Shown: positions 4,966 to 33,074 of the stretch, one piece after another
Layout: each line of letters starts with the position of its first letter
Position numbering within the stretch: the stretch's first letter is position 1
IMG/VR virus record: IMGVR_UViG_3300028844_003786
Location: 1 to 39,748 of that record
Source of the DNA: a virus
DNA length: 39,748 bases
Direction: 5' to 3' (one strand)
Position numbers and translations under genes: made by a program
The notes under the pieces: generated by a model
Databases searched by the model: none
What the model was told of the DNA's origin: nothing
The model's input: the letters and a program-made list of their open reading frames with translations, nothing else

Positions 4966-6087
4966 ATGCAAATTAACCTAATGACCCCTATTAATCAGCT
5001 TGGCTACGGTGTAGCTGGACTAAATATACTCAAGGCATTACAGAAGAAAGCGGAAGTTTCACTGTTTCCCATTGGTGAACCGCAGGTTGTCAATGAAGAA
5101 GATGCAAACGCTGTAAGATCGAGCATGTCTATAGCCAAGTTCTATAACCCAAACGCGCCCTGTATTAAAATCTGGCATCAGAACCAGATGGCAGAACGCA
5201 TAGGGTCGGGTAAGTTTATTGGATTTCCTATCTTTGAGTTAGATACGTTTAGCAACTTAGAGAAGCACCATCTACAATCTTGCGATGAGTTGATGGTTTG
5301 TTCAAAGTGGGCTAGGGATATTGTACGACATAACATGGATGCGTATGCGAATGGCGGTTTTTTACTGGATCAAATTCACGTTGTACCTCTTGGTGTAGAC
5401 GCACAACTGTTCCCGCCAGCACCAGTAAGACAAGATGATAAAACAATTTTCTTCAACTGTGGCAAGTGGGAAAAGCGTAAGGGTCACGATGTTTTGATTG
5501 AATGTTTCAATAGGGCATTTAAAGAAGATGATAACGTAGAATTGTGGATGATGTGCGATAATCCGTTTATAGGCGATAGTAATGAAAAGTGGAGATCGTT
5601 ATACAAAACTTCTCCTTTGGGAAGTAAAATAAAGATAATACCAAGACAACATAGCCAGCAGGATGTGTATAGTATTATGGGCCGAACGGATTGCGGAGTG
5701 TTTCCAGCTAGGGCCGAGGGCTGGAACCTAGAAGCGTTGGAAATGCTTGCCTGCGGCAAGAATGTAATAACAACCAATTATTCAGCACACCAAGAATTTT
5801 GCAACAAAGACAATAGCTTTTTAATTGATATTAACGAAAAGGAAATGGCACATGATGGCGTTTTCTTCGACGGTATGGTTGGCAAATGGGCGTCACTGGG
5901 AGATAAGCAAAAAGAACAGCTTGTTGAACACATGAGGATGGTTCATGGTATTAAACAACAATACGTGAATGGTTGGGATACACAGATGCGTGAATTTAGT
6001 TCTCTAAATCACCAAGGAATAAAAACGGCACAACAGTTTACATGGGAAAACACAGCGAATAAAATTATGGAGGCTATGAATGGATAG
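4966..6087 (+). CDS. GT4-family glycosyltransferase
   Basis: I choose the ATG at 4966 because AAGGAGA (4954-4960) sits five bases upstream; the in-frame ATG at 4945 has no such site. The 373-residue product has the GT-B layout: N-terminal GYGVAGLNIL, the linker VVPLGVDAQLF, the C-terminal domain opening FFNCGKWEKRKGHDVLI, and the donor-binding EGWNLEALEMLACG (E-x7-E pattern), followed by VITTNYSAHQEF. Such retaining enzymes use a nucleotide-sugar donor. A 62-base gap separates it from the GT8 gene and its stop overlaps the peptidase gene start. Confidence 0.88.
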   Translation: MQINLMTPINQLGYGVAGLNILKALQKKAEVSLFPIGEPQVVNEEDANAVRSSMSIAKFYNPNAPCIKIWHQNQMAERIGSGKFIGFPIFELDTFSNLEKHHLQSCDELMVCSKWARDIVRHNMDAYANGGFLLDQIHVVPLGVDAQLFPPAPVRQDDKTIFFNCGKWEKRKGHDVLIECFNRAFKEDDNVELWMMCDNPFIGDSNEKWRSLYKTSPLGSKIKIIPRQHSQQDVYSIMGRTDCGVFPARAEGWNLEALEMLACGKNVITTNYSAHQEFCNKDNSFLIDINEKEMAHDGVFFDGMVGKWASLGDKQKEQLVEHMRMVHGIKQQYVNGWDTQMREFSSLNHQGIKTAQQFTWENTANKIMEAMNG

Positions 6088-7006
6088 CGTATTTTTAACA
6101 CCGAGGGCAATTCTTAACCATTACAGAAAAGGGTTTGTCGGTGGTTTTTGTGACGAAGAAGATACTAAAAAACTTCTTGGTGAACTGCCAATGCCTGTGT
6201 TCGGAGCTGCCGCATACGATCTAAACGGATCTGGGGAGGGTAAACTCAGTTTGCCATTTAAATGTGTGCAAGAGTTTGATGGTGGATTTGGCCCTAGTGA
6301 GAAACAGACAACGGGGGATTGTGTTTCCCATTCTACAAGAAACGCCATAGACATTACAAGGTCTGTTGAGATTTTAGAAAATAATGAGCCAGAAGAATGG
6401 TTAGCTAGAGGTGCGACTGAAGGTATTTATCAATATCGAGGCCATAGAAAACAGGGAATGAGTTGCTCGGGAGCGGCAAGATATGTCAATGATGCCGGTG
6501 GAGTTCTAATAAGAAAGAATTATGGAGTCATTGACCTTTCCACTTATGATTCAAGTATAGGCGCTAAACATAAAATTCCAGAGACTATCTATAAAACAGA
6601 AGCAAGAAAGCATCAAATAAAAACAATATCAAACGTAAGAACTGTCGAAGAAGCTAGAGATGCTTTAGCTAATGGTTATGCTCTTTCTGTATGTTCTGGG
6701 TACGGCTTTTCTTCTAGAAGGGATAGCAACGGTATCGCTAAACGATCTAAGGGTTGGAATCATGCTATGGCTTGGATTGCCTGCGATGATACTCATGATA
6801 TATTTAAAGAAACTTTGTTTCTAGTACAAAATAGCTGGGGCAAGTGGAACAGTGGACCAAAACGCCACGGTCAACCGGATGGTAGTTTTTGGATTCGAGA
6901 AAAGGATGCTCGCGGTATGCTTGCTGGCGGCGGTGCTTGGGTCTTTAGTAAGTTTGACGGTTTTCCATCAAGAAATATTAAATACACAATTAACAAGGTA
7001 TTCTAA
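6080..7006 (+). CDS. Papain-like (C1-type) cysteine peptidase
   Basis: The 308-residue product carries a papain-type catalytic triad in the right order: Cys81 in TTGDCVSHSTRNA, His228 in GWNHAMAWIA, and Asn251 in VQNSWGKWN, with Gln76 as a plausible oxyanion residue. Roughly the first 70 residues form an N-terminal extension that may be a propeptide, and no signal peptide is visible. A peptidase of this class in a phage could process a virion protein, act on host proteins or take part in lysis. The gene sits directly before four small membrane proteins. The triad makes the fold call strong; the biological target is unknown. Confidence 0.82.
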   Translation: MDSVFLTPRAILNHYRKGFVGGFCDEEDTKKLLGELPMPVFGAAAYDLNGSGEGKLSLPFKCVQEFDGGFGPSEKQTTGDCVSHSTRNAIDITRSVEILENNEPEEWLARGATEGIYQYRGHRKQGMSCSGAARYVNDAGGVLIRKNYGVIDLSTYDSSIGAKHKIPETIYKTEARKHQIKTISNVRTVEEARDALANGYALSVCSGYGFSSRRDSNGIAKRSKGWNHAMAWIACDDTHDIFKETLFLVQNSWGKWNSGPKRHGQPDGSFWIREKDARGMLAGGGAWVFSKFDGFPSRNIKYTINKVF

Positions 7007-7428
7007 TGAACGTAAACCAAAAAGCAATAATAGGAGTCTTTGTTGTACTTTTCTTTATTTATTTTACAAATTCTGATAAATTATCAAGTTCAAGGTTGAC
7101 AAATGACGAAGTAAATGGTATAATAAGGGGCGTGAACGAAAGTTTTGTAGACGCTGAAAAAGAAATTTTAACGGAACCCCCGGAACCCCCGGAACCTGTT
7201 GTTCCATCGGGTCCAGACCCAGATCCAAAAAAGTGCATATGTCAGGGGACCGGCAAAATAGTTCAAGGAGATGGTCATGTTTCCGATTGTCCATATCATG
7301 AGAACGAAGTGACAGTAATTGAGGATTGGTCCGAACCTGAATCGGTTATCAGTTCTACTAAAGATAATTCAAAATCATATAAAAGTCAGAGAGGAATTTT
7401 AGGTGGTCGCCTCTTTGAAGTAAAATAA
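7006..7428 (+). CDS. Membrane-anchored protein with Cys/His motif
   Basis: The 140-residue product has an N-terminal membrane segment (about residues 7-22, AIIGVFVVLFFIYF) that looks like a signal anchor. An acidic segment and a Pro-Glu run (PPEPPEP) come next, then a compact motif C-x-C-x-G-T-G-x9-C-P-Y-H around residues 77-97. That motif resembles one half of a DnaJ-type zinc finger and may bind a metal or become oxidised outside the cytoplasm. The gene starts at the last base of the peptidase stop (TAATG). A consensus promoter lies inside it at 7096-7124. I do not recognise the full-length family. Confidence 0.7.
   Translation: MNVNQKAIIGVFVVLFFIYFTNSDKLSSSRLTNDEVNGIIRGVNESFVDAEKEILTEPPEPPEPVVPSGPDPDPKKCICQGTGKIVQGDGHVSDCPYHENEVTVIEDWSEPESVISSTKDNSKSYKSQRGILGGRLFEVK
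7096..7124 (+). promoter_or_regulatory. Perfect sigma70-type promoter inside a gene
   Basis: TTGACA at 7096-7101 and TATAAT at 7119-7124 are both perfect consensus hexamers with the optimal 17-base spacer, plus a TG one base before the -10 (extended -10). It lies in the coding sequence of the membrane-anchored protein and would transcribe the holin-like gene and those after it with a leader of about 330 bases. Consensus quality makes chance unlikely but not impossible in AT-rich DNA. Confidence 0.65.
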
Positions 7429-7468
7429 CTGACTACCCTGTTGACAATTTATTGTTAGGAGATAAGTT

Positions 7469-7645
7469 ATGAGTAAGTGGAAATCGTTACTAGCCTCAAG
7501 GCGCTTTTGGGTTAGCGCAATTGGTCTTGTTAGTGTCGTTGCAGCAGATGTTCTAGGAGTAAATCTAAATCAAGAACAACTATTGGGAGTTGTAACAATC
7601 GTTGTCGCTTGGGTCATCGGTGACACAGTAAGAGAAACAAAGTAA
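7469..7645 (+). CDS. Small holin-like membrane protein
   Basis: This 58-residue gene has a TAGGAGAT ribosome site seven bases before its ATG. The product begins MSKWKSLLASRRFW, followed by a hydrophobic stretch (about 15-31), a short polar turn (NLNQEQ) and a second hydrophobic stretch (about 38-51), and ends in a charged tail (DTVRETK). That two-helix layout with a basic start and charged end, and the SRRFW opening, resemble short phage holins. A holin would make holes in the host membrane at lysis. No adjacent endolysin is obvious, so the role is inferred. Confidence 0.65.
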   Translation: MSKWKSLLASRRFWVSAIGLVSVVAADVLGVNLNQEQLLGVVTIVVAWVIGDTVRETK

Positions 7646-7660
7646 CTAGAGGTCTTTAGA

Positions 7661-7963
7661 ATGGAATTTTTAAATGATATAAGTATTGTTCAGTGGGTTT
7701 TTTTAGGACTCGGTTCTATTCTTGTATTTCCTCTTTTATGGGATAAAATTAAATATAATATTCCCTCTTTGAATAACTTAAAACTAAAACCAAATACAAA
7801 CTCTCCACCGAATTTATCTAAGATTGTTAGACAGTGGGAGGCTTTGATGGTAAGTTGTGAGGAAAAAAAACTTCGCGACGCCTGCAAAAAACTGGACGAG
7901 GTTTTTCCTTTACTAATTTTATTCAGAGAAGATGAGGTGGAAACAGATGACGAAAAAAACTAG
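7661..7963 (+). CDS. Small membrane-anchored protein, unknown function
   Basis: The 100-residue product has one N-terminal membrane segment (about residues 9-26, VQWVFLGLGSILVFPLLW), then a basic linker and a helical, charged C-terminal part with a possible dithiol pair (Cys50-x-x-x region and Cys60). It starts 15 bases after the holin-like gene and overlaps the next gene. I do not recognise the family. Position suggests a partner in a membrane module. Confidence 0.65.
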   Translation: MEFLNDISIVQWVFLGLGSILVFPLLWDKIKYNIPSLNNLKLKPNTNSPPNLSKIVRQWEALMVSCEEKKLRDACKKLDEVFPLLILFREDEVETDDEKN

Positions 7964-8402
7964 AGCTATTATTGGCATTTGTTTGATATTGATTGGGTTC
8001 TTTTGGGACTCAATTAAAAACAGTATTCCAAATATTCCTGCGCCCAATATTCCAATTTTAAATATTCCTAGACCAGACTTAGATACTTTGGAAAATGTTT
8101 CAAGTATTGCCAACTTAGTAACCGATAAGGATGATGGGTTGCGGTTGGCGATATTTAACATGGTTTTTTCGGAAAGGGTTAAAGATTGGAACTGTAATTC
8201 TCAACAGATAAACGATATATATGTACTAGCCGCTCAAAACGAGTTTGGAACCAGTCTAGCCGGTAAGTATGACGGATATGCAGAAGGAATAGAGGAATTA
8301 TTTAAGGATTCCTTGGGTACAAAAAACGCTTCTGTTACAGAAAACCAAAAACAAAACCTTTCAATTGATTTTAATGGACTAGCGTATTCACTAGCTAATT
8401 AG
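7947..8402 (+). CDS. Small membrane-anchored protein with N-I-P repeats
   Basis: I start at the ATG at 7947 because GAGGTGG lies about six bases upstream; the ATG at 7932 has no comparable site. The 151-residue product has an N-terminal membrane segment (about 7-19, IIGICLILIGFFW). A short Pro repeat (SIPNIPAPNIPILNIPRP) follows, then a mixed helical domain without a known motif. The Pro repeat may act as a rigid spacer holding the domain away from the membrane. It overlaps the previous gene by 17 bases. Function unknown. Confidence 0.65.
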   Translation: MTKKTRAIIGICLILIGFFWDSIKNSIPNIPAPNIPILNIPRPDLDTLENVSSIANLVTDKDDGLRLAIFNMVFSERVKDWNCNSQQINDIYVLAAQNEFGTSLAGKYDGYAEGIEELFKDSLGTKNASVTENQKQNLSIDFNGLAYSLAN

Positions 8403-28051: not shown

Positions 28052-28092
28052 AAGACGTACACTAAACTTTGCGAAATAGATTTGAGGAACAT

Positions 28093-29694
28093 ATGTGGAA
28101 CCCAGTTAACTGCAAAACTCACTTTTCTTTACAGCACGGGTTTTGCAAGGCTGATAAATTAGCAAAACGCTGTGCGGAGTATGGGTATACGGCTTGTGGA
28201 ATAGCTGATTTTGGCACGCTTTCCGGGGCCGTAGATTTCCAACAGGAATGTAAGCAAAATGGTATCAAGCCAATTATTGGATGCGAGTTTGATGGCTATA
28301 TTCTTTACGCCAAAAATAAGGATGGATGGTTCGACCTTGTAAAGTATGTATCAAACCAGACTCTCAATGTTCTTAAAGATGTTGCCAGTCGAGGAAATGT
28401 ACTTTGTGTTACCGCAGAAAAAAATGGATTTGCCAACCTTTTTAAAAGCAATCATGTACAGCTTGATTATGAGTCGCAGGCAATCTATTATGTAGATGAA
28501 AGTGACGCTGAGTGTCATAGAATCATGTTATGTGGCAAGATGAAAACCACACTAAAGAAGGTAAATAACTTAGAACACGATTATGAGCAGTTCTTCGATC
28601 CTCTTCATAAAAGCTATGGAACGTTTCACCTAAAAAACCAAAACCAAGAATTTACCAAGATTTGCTTTACTGAGGGTCAAAATGATATTTGGCGAATTGT
28701 GGATAAATGCGAAGAATACGACCTTGCTGATAAACCATCATTCCCTACCTTTCCATGTCCTGACGGAATCAGCGAGGATGATTATCTCACAGAATTATGT
28801 AGAGAGGGCTGGAAATCAAGACTTGTAGGCACAGAAAAGATTACTACCCAAGAAGACAAGGATCGCTATACGAAACAAATCAAACACGAACTAAAGGTTA
28901 TTTTTAAAGCACAGCTTTCTGGTTACTTTTTGATCGTTCAGGATATTATTCGATGGGTTAAATCACAAGGTTGGCTCGCTGGTCCGGGTCGAGGATCTGC
29001 CGCTGGTTGCTTGATATCATATCTTTTAGGAATCACAGACGTTGATCCTGTTGAGTTTGATCTTCTCTTTGAGCGTTTTTATAATGAAGGACGTAATACA
29101 GAAGATAATGTGGCAATTCCTGATATTGATATGGATGTTCCGGCAGAATATAGGGATGATGTAATCTCGTACATCAAGGAAAAGTATGGAGAATCAAATG
29201 TTGCACAAATGATTACAATGGGCAGGCTACAAGGAAGGTCTGCAATAAAAGAGGTTTGTAGAGTAAATGAAGCTTCTAGTTTTGCCGAAATCAACGAAAT
29301 GACAGCGGCTCTGCCTGACGAGCAATTAATTTCCGATCAGCTAGAGTTAATGGATAGCAAGTCTGTAATTCTATGGGCCTTGGAACACCAACCAGAAAAA
29401 CTTAAAAACTACTGTTACATTAATGAAGATGGAAAATTAGACGGTCCTATGAAGGACATCTTTACCCAAGCTATAAATATCGAAGGAACTAATAAATCAC
29501 AAGGAAAACATCCTGCTGGTGTAATTATTTCAAAACATAAACTTTCGGACGTTTGTCCGATGACGGTTGATAAAAACGGTGATCCAATCGTTGCTTTTGA
29601 AATGAACCCCCTTGAAAAACAGGGACACGTTAAATTCGACGTTTTAGGAATTGACTTATTATCAAAAATCATGGAGATATGCAAAAATGAATAA
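28093..29694 (+). CDS. dnaE: DNA polymerase III alpha subunit, N-terminal half (split gene)
   Basis: I use the ATG at 28093, four bases after GAGGA, not the upstream TTG at 28069. The 533-residue product has a PHP domain (about 1-110: KTHFSLQHGF, CGIADFGTL, GIKPIIGCEF). The Pol III palm core follows: GYFLIVQDIIRW, GPGRGSAAGCLISYLLG, PDIDMD with catalytic Asp344 and Asp346, HPAGVI, and VKFDVLG with Asp516 as the third catalytic residue. PHP metal ligands are replaced (the usual H-x-H and DHG appear as N-x-K and DFG), so this domain is probably not an active exonuclease. The protein stops right after the palm; the rest is in the gene at 31497. The stop overlaps the next ATG. Confidence 0.93.
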   Translation: MWNPVNCKTHFSLQHGFCKADKLAKRCAEYGYTACGIADFGTLSGAVDFQQECKQNGIKPIIGCEFDGYILYAKNKDGWFDLVKYVSNQTLNVLKDVASRGNVLCVTAEKNGFANLFKSNHVQLDYESQAIYYVDESDAECHRIMLCGKMKTTLKKVNNLEHDYEQFFDPLHKSYGTFHLKNQNQEFTKICFTEGQNDIWRIVDKCEEYDLADKPSFPTFPCPDGISEDDYLTELCREGWKSRLVGTEKITTQEDKDRYTKQIKHELKVIFKAQLSGYFLIVQDIIRWVKSQGWLAGPGRGSAAGCLISYLLGITDVDPVEFDLLFERFYNEGRNTEDNVAIPDIDMDVPAEYRDDVISYIKEKYGESNVAQMITMGRLQGRSAIKEVCRVNEASSFAEINEMTAALPDEQLISDQLELMDSKSVILWALEHQPEKLKNYCYINEDGKLDGPMKDIFTQAINIEGTNKSQGKHPAGVIISKHKLSDVCPMTVDKNGDPIVAFEMNPLEKQGHVKFDVLGIDLLSKIMEICKNE

Positions 29695-31374: not shown

Positions 31375-31504
31375 CAAAAAAACCATCAGAGTTAACGATG
31401 TTCATGGAAATTTTTTCATGATAAATATTGAAGAACTAGAAGATTTTTACAAAGAACAAAAGAGAATTCAACAAGAGTTGAAAGAAAGTAAAAAAGATGA
31501 CTAA
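31364..31504 (+). CDS. Small charged protein between exonuclease and polymerase C-half
   Basis: This 46-residue gene has GGAG (31354-31357) six bases before its ATG, overlaps the exonuclease stop by 11 bases and the polymerase C-half start by eight. The product has an N-terminal strand pair (TIRVNDVHGNFFMIN) and a charged helix rich in Glu, Lys and Gln. Overlap and ribosome site support expression; function is unknown, but a small replisome partner is possible. Confidence 0.6.
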   Translation: MSDNKKTIRVNDVHGNFFMINIEELEDFYKEQKRIQQELKESKKDD

Positions 31505-33074
31505 TTTTGACATTAACGATTTTGACGATGAAAATGTTTGGGACTTGCTATGCGAAGGTGATACAAAAGGCGTCTTCCAGCTAGAATCACATTTGGGTAG
31601 ACATTGGGCAAAAGAGACAAAGCCTAGAAATAGAAAAGATCTTGCGGCACTTATCAGTCTTATTCGACCCGGAACTCTTATGGCGAAAGATGCCAACGGA
31701 AAAAGCATGACACAGGTCTATGCAGATAGAAAAGCTGGAAAAAGCGATGCTCCTGTCGAGTACCTACATGAGTCACTAGAGCCTATCCTAAGAGAAACAT
31801 ATGGCGTTCTTGTTTACCAAGAACAGTCTATGGCTATCGTTCAAAAACTAGCAGGCTTTAACGGAGTACAAGCTGATTCGCTACGCAAGGCTATCGGAAA
31901 GAAGAAGGCAGATGTTATGGCATCTGTTAAGAAGGAGTTTATGGATGGCGTAGAAAAAAAAGGTGAAATAAGTCTTGGTGTCGCGGAAGAAATATTCTCA
32001 TGGATCGAAAAGTCTAGTAGGTACGCTTTCAATAAATCTCACGCAGTCTCTTATGCATACCTAGCTTACTGGTCTGCCTATTGTAAGTTTCATCGTAGAA
32101 ATAAATTCTACAATACTTATTTAAATAGAGCGAATAGAAAACCTTATCCAGACGAAGAAAAAAAACAACTAATAAATGACGCCAAGAAGGCAAACATCGA
32201 AGTGCTTCCACCTAGACTGCAACATTTAGTTGCGGATTTTTCTAGAGATAAAAAGAAAAACGTTATATACTACGGAATTAACCATGTTAAAAACGTAGGC
32301 AGCATAGAAACCAAGAAGATTATGGATTTTATGAAAGACAGGGAAATCCAAGATTTTAGCTGGTTAGATTGTCTTTTTTTTATCATTAACGATCTTCGAT
32401 TAAACAAAAGGTCCACAATCGCATTGATTTCTGTAGGGGGATTTAACGGTAGGAATAACTTAAACTCTCGACAAAAAATGCTTTATGAGTTTGACTCTTG
32501 GAAAAAGTTGACTGAAAGAGAGCGAAAAACTATTGTTTCCAATTACAAATCAGGCGAACCGTCTGTATTCGCAAAGGATCTTTCTCAGGCGATAGGCCAT
32601 TTAATCGAGGGTAGAGGATTAAAGATTAATGCAAAGAGAATGGAAACCGTTAAAGATATAAAAGACTCCTTAGACAATCCATTTTATGACATAAATGACA
32701 ATGCACTTACTGTTGCGATAGACGAAGAAAAATTTCTTGCATCACCACTTACTTGTAGCAAAGTTGACGGATTAGATATAATTAATTCAACAAATATGTG
32801 TCAAGATGTGGCAAAAGGTGTGATAACAGGTAAAGTAATTCTTGCTGTTGAAATATCTCGTATGAAAATTGTACAAACTAAAAACGGAAAGAACCCCGGA
32901 CAAGAAATGGCTTTTCTTAGCGTAGAAGATGGTTCCGGCGATCTAGAAGATGTTGTAATCTTTCCAGACTGTTATAAAGAAAACAAAGACGTTTTAATTG
33001 AGGGTAATACAGTATTATTGCATGGCGAAGTTAGTAAAGGTTCGTTCATTGTTAATAAAGCAACACAGATTTGA
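31497..33074 (+). CDS. dnaE: DNA polymerase III alpha subunit, C-terminal half (split gene)
   Basis: The 525-residue product begins at the point where the N-half ends. It reads FDINDFDDENVWDLLCEGDT, KGVFQLES, then LIRPGTL, ETYGVLVYQEQSM, LRKAIGKKKADVM and YAFNKSHAVSYAY: the fingers and the region that follows the palm in bacterial DnaE. Further on come a helix-hairpin-helix-like region and an OB-fold (about residues 440-525, ITGKVILAVEI...AFLSVEDGSGDLEDVVIF). Together with the 533-residue N-half it makes about 1058 residues, near normal DnaE length, so nothing large is missing. No intein residues are seen at the joint. The pair should assemble into one replicase. Confidence 0.92.
   Translation: MTNFDINDFDDENVWDLLCEGDTKGVFQLESHLGRHWAKETKPRNRKDLAALISLIRPGTLMAKDANGKSMTQVYADRKAGKSDAPVEYLHESLEPILRETYGVLVYQEQSMAIVQKLAGFNGVQADSLRKAIGKKKADVMASVKKEFMDGVEKKGEISLGVAEEIFSWIEKSSRYAFNKSHAVSYAYLAYWSAYCKFHRRNKFYNTYLNRANRKPYPDEEKKQLINDAKKANIEVLPPRLQHLVADFSRDKKKNVIYYGINHVKNVGSIETKKIMDFMKDREIQDFSWLDCLFFIINDLRLNKRSTIALISVGGFNGRNNLNSRQKMLYEFDSWKKLTERERKTIVSNYKSGEPSVFAKDLSQAIGHLIEGRGLKINAKRMETVKDIKDSLDNPFYDINDNALTVAIDEEKFLASPLTCSKVDGLDIINSTNMCQDVAKGVITGKVILAVEISRMKIVQTKNGKNPGQEMAFLSVEDGSGDLEDVVIFPDCYKENKDVLIEGNTVLLHGEVSKGSFIVNKATQI

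Follow-up and report, generated by a model that had tools for sequence, protein, structure and literature searches.

We analysed a 39,748-base viral record, itself only a fragment (IMG/VR record IMGVR_UViG_3300028844_003786; henceforth the window, i.e., the whole stretch at its full length), and focused on five tightly packed plus-strand genes at 6080-8402. In order, these encode a papain-like cysteine peptidase (PEP), a protein with a conserved cysteine motif (CXC), a small holin-like protein (HOL) and two further anchored proteins (ANC3 and ANC4; Table 1). The original prediction, made from the letters alone, had listed here a C1-type peptidase followed by four anchored small proteins, and all five open reading frames are present on the plus strand. 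Purine-rich sequences resembling ribosome-binding sites lie upstream of the starts of the module genes. A hydrophobic N-terminus comparable to those of the module is found in 6 of the 52 window genes, four of which are the consecutive module genes, a run that is unusual for the window (i.e., more than chance would give; about p=0.003, calculated by hand). Each of the five proteins has tens of conserved homologues encoded in the same order; the module reaches far beyond the single window locus.

Table 1 Features of the five-gene module in the window (AF2: AlphaFold2; pLDDT: predicted local distance difference test; aa: amino acids; TM: transmembrane)
Feature	Position	Strand	Evidence
PEP, papain-like cysteine peptidase, 308 aa, no signal peptide	6080..7006	+	tetrad residues kept; AF2 model matches xylellain 3ois
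Codons Q76 to catalytic C81 of PEP (QTTGDC)	6305..6322	+	C81 in 48/48, Q76 in 47/48 with one gap
Codon of catalytic H228 of PEP (GWNHAM)	6761..6763	+	invariant, 48/48
Codon of catalytic N251 of PEP (QNSWG)	6830..6832	+	invariant, 48/48
CXC, 140 aa, anchored, Pro-rich linker, C-x-C-x-G-T-G-x-I-x-x-G-D-G-H-x-x-x-C-P-Y-H motif	7006..7428	+	motif conserved; motif-only search recovers PEP loci
Conserved Cys/GDGH motif of CXC	7234..7299	+	C79, G83, I85, GDGH88-91 and C95 invariant in alignment A2
HOL, two-TM holin-like protein, 58 aa	7469..7645	+	PHROG holin families 297 and 9987, weak
ANC3, N-terminal TM and conserved WE-L...C...L--A...L-EVFP domain	7661..7963	+	alignment A5; 69/69 loci with flank
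ANC4, TM helix, Pro-rich linker, five-helix domain	7947..8402 (alternative start 7932)	+	AF2 pLDDT 88; 69/69 loci

PEP is probably an active cysteine peptidase. Q76, C81, H228 and N251 follow one another in the papain order (Gln-Cys-His-Asn), and the 48-sequence residue count given in Table 1 takes in relatives down to 27% identity. A search of uncultured viral contigs with PEP returned 132 relatives, 80 of which were fetched; identity to the window protein was 66-89% in 25 representatives. With 79% mean column identity (alignment A1), PEP ranks with the most conserved proteins. The AF2 model, moderately confident with a pLDDT of only 60, matches the papain fold well: Foldseek gave 104 matches below 0.001, with xylellain (3ois) at E 4.6e-7, structural alignment (VIA) to the same entry reached Z 13.1 over 219 residues with a root mean square deviation of 3.9, and the surface-layer-associated protease Cwp84 was among the top structural rows. 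Such likeness to known proteases carries no information on the substrate. In single-sequence searches PEP found no family in Pfam or PHROGs at E 1 and nothing in the PDB, its profile had no relevant match among PDB sequences, and no Pfam or PHROG lysin match indicated a peptidoglycan hydrolase domain. Since neither a curated family nor a PDB sequence matched, we call PEP papain-like and do not place it in a named family.

In locus L283 (G025:C1, about 74123-76033), an intein of roughly 330 residues splits the PEP gene directly before the catalytic cysteine; its C-terminal HN abuts Cys81, which would be the +1 splicing residue, and a similar intein-like end (SN directly before C) was seen in the PEP of L161/L284. 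That an intein sits exactly there suggests that the catalytic-cysteine site is under strong constraint. Among relatives that we label freshwater/soil (a reading of contig composition, not a record field), PEP usually has an N-terminal membrane anchor, which the signal-less window protein lacks; given these anchored forms, PEP probably does its work at the membrane or outside it. In two loci (L270:1946-2887 of G019, and L179:3444-4388), the anchored genes and PEP are closely preceded by a gene that by eye encodes a subtilisin-like protease, i.e., a second protease in the cassette.

For CXC, the predicted signal anchor and C-x-C...C-P-Y-H motif correspond to an N-terminal anchor and C77-x-C79...C95-P-Y-H. 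An anchor or signal-like N-terminus was found in 119 of 155 CXC frames, a lipobox in 18/155 and a WCxPC-type motif downstream in 22/155, while the CXC of L058 is fused to a Pfam Thioredoxin_7 domain (E 1.1e-7). A WCxxC thioredoxin domain is absent from the window CXC. From its cysteines and the thioredoxin fusions, CXC may have a redox role. A profile match to the MDM2 zinc finger (E 0.007) was not accepted as homology. One locus (L076:8909-10024; G003) encodes an ANC4-CXC fusion protein, which suggests that ANC4 and CXC work together; similarly long CXC proteins occur in L132 and L153. Inside the window CXC gene, a perfect sigma-70 consensus (TTGACA-17-TATAAT with TG; 7096-7124) could drive HOL-ANC3-ANC4, and may be due to chance because it overlaps the conserved LTNDE..II codons.

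HOL, originally described as a two-helix holin-like form, does contain two hydrophobic stretches, and these, its length and its charged GDTVRETK end agree with the size and topology of a holin. Its similarity to the PHROG holin families is weak (phrog_297, E 0.0013; phrog_9987, E 0.0055), with similar matches in relatives. In cultured phages it has one weak match, encoded immediately downstream of an amidase gene and next to a holin-like one. These weak matches and the position of the gene hint at a holin role. In ANC4, the predicted N-I-P repeat spacer behind the anchor is present in the window protein, but relatives keep only the prolines. The start at 7947 is more probable than that at 7932, as the methionine at 7947 is conserved in relatives. 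Profile comparison shows ANC4, whose AF2 model is of good confidence, and the anchored protein of the freshwater/soil loci to be homologues (hhalign probability 96, E 3.8e-9). We had suspected a propeptide-like inhibitor of PEP, and the fold search was uninformative, giving only CRISPR Csm2-like helical bundles (Z 6).

To quantify linkage, we used loci found by PEP alone and counted those with enough flank. CXC lies within 2.5 kb downstream on the same strand in 71/74 of them, ANC3 and ANC4 are present throughout (Table 1), and the HOL family in 46/69. Neighbourhood conservation, one of the checks named by the original prediction, is therefore clear, and the lack of linkage that made up half of its refuting condition was not observed. 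As an independent test, viral contigs were searched by DNA pattern for the CXC motif alone, and PEP was encoded in 68 of the 79 loci so fetched, many of these PEPs at 27-35% identity; five of the remaining eleven records have a further PEP beyond the fetched stretch. About half of the motif-fetched loci are freshwater/soil-type contigs with PEP in that identity range, and their gene order is (TM protein)-ANC3-like-ANC4-PEP-(TM proteins)-CXC. In a second clade the upstream genes are rearranged, PEP, CXC, ANC3 and ANC4 remain together, and an unrelated single-TM protein of ~113 aa stands in place of HOL. A 70-aa hydrophobic protein precedes PEP in G002 and G004, and its homologue (70-94 aa) occupies exactly the HOL slot in L152. 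The linkage is real and old, being near-universal in relatives and surviving re-ordering, with the core of PEP, CXC and ANC4 kept at 27-35% PEP identity in differing gene orders. In G002, the gene immediately upstream of the 70-aa holin-like gene and PEP (L094:3282-3854) encodes a 191-aa protein with an N-terminal TM helix and a possible PAS-like C-terminal part, which might serve in timing or sensing.

With only 39.7 kb of a genome in the window, the endolysin question was addressed in relatives. Wall-hydrolase profile searches of related contigs (with working controls; contig completeness not established) gave no match to Phage_lysozyme (PF00959; 32 contigs), Amidase_2 (PF01510; 33), SLT (PF01464; 32), Peptidase_M15_3 (PF08291; 32) or M15_4 (PF13539; 13). 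A motif scan of four contigs of 122-167 kb yielded no convincing lysin candidate; an M23-like motif in G001 fell within a protein that by eye reads like IMP dehydrogenase/GMP reductase. Among 70 proteins without other assignment (31 + 39), most of them from G001, a relative of 138 kb, Pfam scans picked up an M19 dipeptidase, a trypsin-like protein and a Clp-type protease; no peptidoglycan hydrolase was among the matches listed (25 of 29 families for one scan). In G022, 39 other proteins matched 25 Pfam families, none of them a wall hydrolase.

We consider it roughly an even bet that the five genes serve an uncultured phage lineage as its lysis (i.e., virion release) cassette, in which the papain-like peptidase serves as endolysin together with a holin and anchored, possibly thiol-active partners. 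PEP would replace the muralytic endolysin and cut protein or peptide bonds of the host wall; its substrate could be a protein wall or, in peptidoglycan, the peptide cross-links. HOL, or the interchangeable small membrane protein of relatives, would be the holin that releases the signal-less PEP from the cytoplasm, and in freshwater/soil relatives the membrane anchor of PEP itself would take the place of the holin route. CXC, ANC3 and ANC4, which we infer to be anchored on the outer face, would position or regulate PEP, and CXC, sometimes thioredoxin-fused, may hold the catalytic cysteine in its reduced state or open wall disulfides. That one and the same slot is filled or flanked by different kinds of small two-TM protein (HOL; the G002-type protein in L152) counts for a lysis cassette. 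Siphophages usually keep their lysis genes just after the tail genes, and this is where the module stands in G022, a siphophage of 44 kb that carries portal, capsid, tail and integrase genes; the integrase/replication block follows the module. The earlier suggestion, in which a cysteine peptidase takes part in lysis or envelope remodelling, is thus upheld in part: the linkage and the lack of an endolysin in the searched relatives speak for it, and the holin role of HOL is weakly backed.

Several observations weigh against this reading. The module is late but not uniquely 'lysis' in its surroundings: in some relatives it is placed between head genes, it adjoins the major capsid gene in L158 and L172, comes just after portal and protease-capsid genes in L171, and has tail-fibre-like genes inserted into it in L187 and L188. 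The HOL-holin match is weak, and the replacement proteins of the second clade have no holin match. The absence of an endolysin comes from profile and motif searches of contigs of unestablished completeness, with CHAP, M23, GH19, GH25 and NlpC covered by motif or two-genome Pfam scans only, and a GH108 search was uninformative, its control being silent. Among 50,697 phage records there were no relatives of PEP, CXC, ANC3 or ANC4, i.e., no cultured relative, and the thioredoxin-fused CXC, the 113-aa TM protein and the PEPs of relatives were likewise without cultured match. Finally, in the open-access literature we found no papain-family C-H-N enzymes as endolysins, nor any description of the module.

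The original prediction had also allowed for superinfection exclusion, which is possible but less likely than lysis. Here an anchored protease complex would cut or mask receptors or other surface proteins, and unrecognised genes would carry out lysis. This explanation, unlikely on balance, would suit the anchoring of several module components, the tail-fibre-like genes within the module in L187 and L188, and the position of the window module, which borders on glycosyltransferase and WavE-like genes and has putative adhesin/fibre-like genes upstream of it. Exclusion genes, however, are usually accessory and patchy, whereas the module is found in practically all members with enough flank and includes one of the most conserved proteins; moreover, surface remodelling leaves these phages without any recognised lysin, and a holin-like member is hard to explain.

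A narrower form of the lysis proposal, to which we give slightly less credence than to exclusion, is protease-based lysis of protein-walled hosts (S-layer-only SAR202/Dehalococcoidia, or planctomycete-type), in which the papain-like endolysin would cut the wall and the CXC/thioredoxin partner would keep the enzyme active or open disulfides. A weak pointer to SAR202 is a contig (L113) from a SAR202 metagenome-assembled genome (MAG) that is almost identical to G002; a relative was also seen in a Lokiarchaeota MAG. The MAG contigs with such phages look purely viral. SAR202 has been reported to have an S-layer and no peptidoglycan (PMC11994032). One to four DUF1501 (PF07394) genes lie close to the module in G001 (L087:8761-13722), G002, G004, G006, G007, G009 and G010, those of G001 with twin-arginine translocation (TAT)-like signals. 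This family is as a rule discussed for planctomycete-type bacteria and, to our knowledge, is not known in phages. DUF1501 has been discussed for the Planctomycetes-Verrucomicrobia-Chlamydiae (PVC) group (PMC4452313), and the genes point weakly to PVC-type bacteria, not SAR202, as host. Phage tmRNA genes were seen at L087:18001-18342, L095:2584-2900, L105:18842-19124 and L112:6835-7156, two of which look permuted; the phage tags VEENFALAA, GVENYAMAA and AESQFAMAA, set against the mostly G-starting Dehalococcoidia tags, do not decide the host. Given the purely viral MAG contigs and the DUF1501 genes, we left the host unassigned and kept the protein-wall reading as a side case. For archaeal viruses, exit from hosts without normal peptidoglycan is stated to be an open question, and a holin plus an S-layer protease has been proposed as a hypothesis only, the enzymes being said to be unknown (PMC4456609). 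That proposal shares with the module the idea of a membrane hole together with proteolysis of a protein wall.

A shade more doubtful again is that PEP and its anchored partners are spanin-like or envelope-weakening accessories beside a canonical endolysin too divergent to be detected. Endolysins and holins do diverge fast, several genes per genome are without assignment, and the lipobox of a minority of CXC frames is reminiscent of outer spanins. Against this stand the five wall-hydrolase profiles that, with working controls, matched nothing in 13-33 contigs, the equally empty two-genome Pfam scans, and the predicted structure of ANC4, which is a compact five-helix bundle and not an extended spanin rod (no coiled-coil test was made). 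Least probable is a virion protease for entry or particle maturation, in which PEP is packaged or processes structural proteins and the anchored proteins are incidental: the module is next to head genes in L158, L172 and L171, but it is away from them in G001 to G004 and G022, G001 already has a Clp-type prohead protease, and the PEP of relatives carries a membrane anchor.

If the five genes are a lysis cassette, they resemble lambda-type holin-endolysin cassettes in pairing a signal-less hydrolase with a small two-TM protein, in the late, post-tail position seen in G022 and in having anchored accessory proteins. They differ in that a papain-like peptidase stands where those cassettes have a lysozyme, amidase or CHAP/NlpC enzyme, and in two or three extra anchored proteins of unfamiliar type, among which no spanin pair was recognised. 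Signal-anchored endolysins of the signal-arrest-release (SAR) kind are represented by P1 Lyz. The freshwater/soil PEPs are likewise N-terminally anchored, and thiol control of the catalytic cysteine is conceivable; PEP does not qualify as a SAR endolysin, however, being papain-like by model instead of lysozyme-fold and anchored in freshwater/soil relatives only. The two forms of PEP (signal-less with a holin, and anchored) parallel the two known routes of endolysins to the wall. With C1 peptidases (xylellain 3ois, Cwp84 4d59/4ci7 and cathepsins) PEP shares the Q-C-H-N tetrad order and its papain-like model, but identity is 10-18% over the model, there is no recognisable propeptide and the context is that of a phage. 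Phage lysins of the CHAP/NlpC type belong to a papain-related superfamily and are used on cell walls (PMC10318531, PMC9703825); they are permuted or Cys-His enzymes acting on peptidoglycan, whereas PEP keeps the C-H-N order and matches none of their families.

Should the lysis reading be correct, widespread environmental phages would burst their hosts by means of a classical papain-type protease. We have not found endolysins of this type described in the open-access literature, and they would be a new enzyme class for wall lysis. The lysis reading would also offer an experimental handle on the exit of tailed viruses from hosts without a normal peptidoglycan wall, and PEP-CXC-ANC4 would be a marker module for finding phages of hard-to-culture bacteria.

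The rest of the window encodes a ribonucleotide reductase, PhoH, a sigma-like factor, a helicase, a primase, a split DnaE-like polymerase and several glycosyltransferases, and on account of these genes we regard it as a tailed-phage genome. Its polymerase has ~30% identity to known phages, with no close cultured relative. The two polymerase genes (28069-29694 and 31497-33074) are separated by a small gene, a gene for a 237-aa protein and a DnaQ-like exonuclease gene, and the halves are separate genes in G001 to G004 as well.

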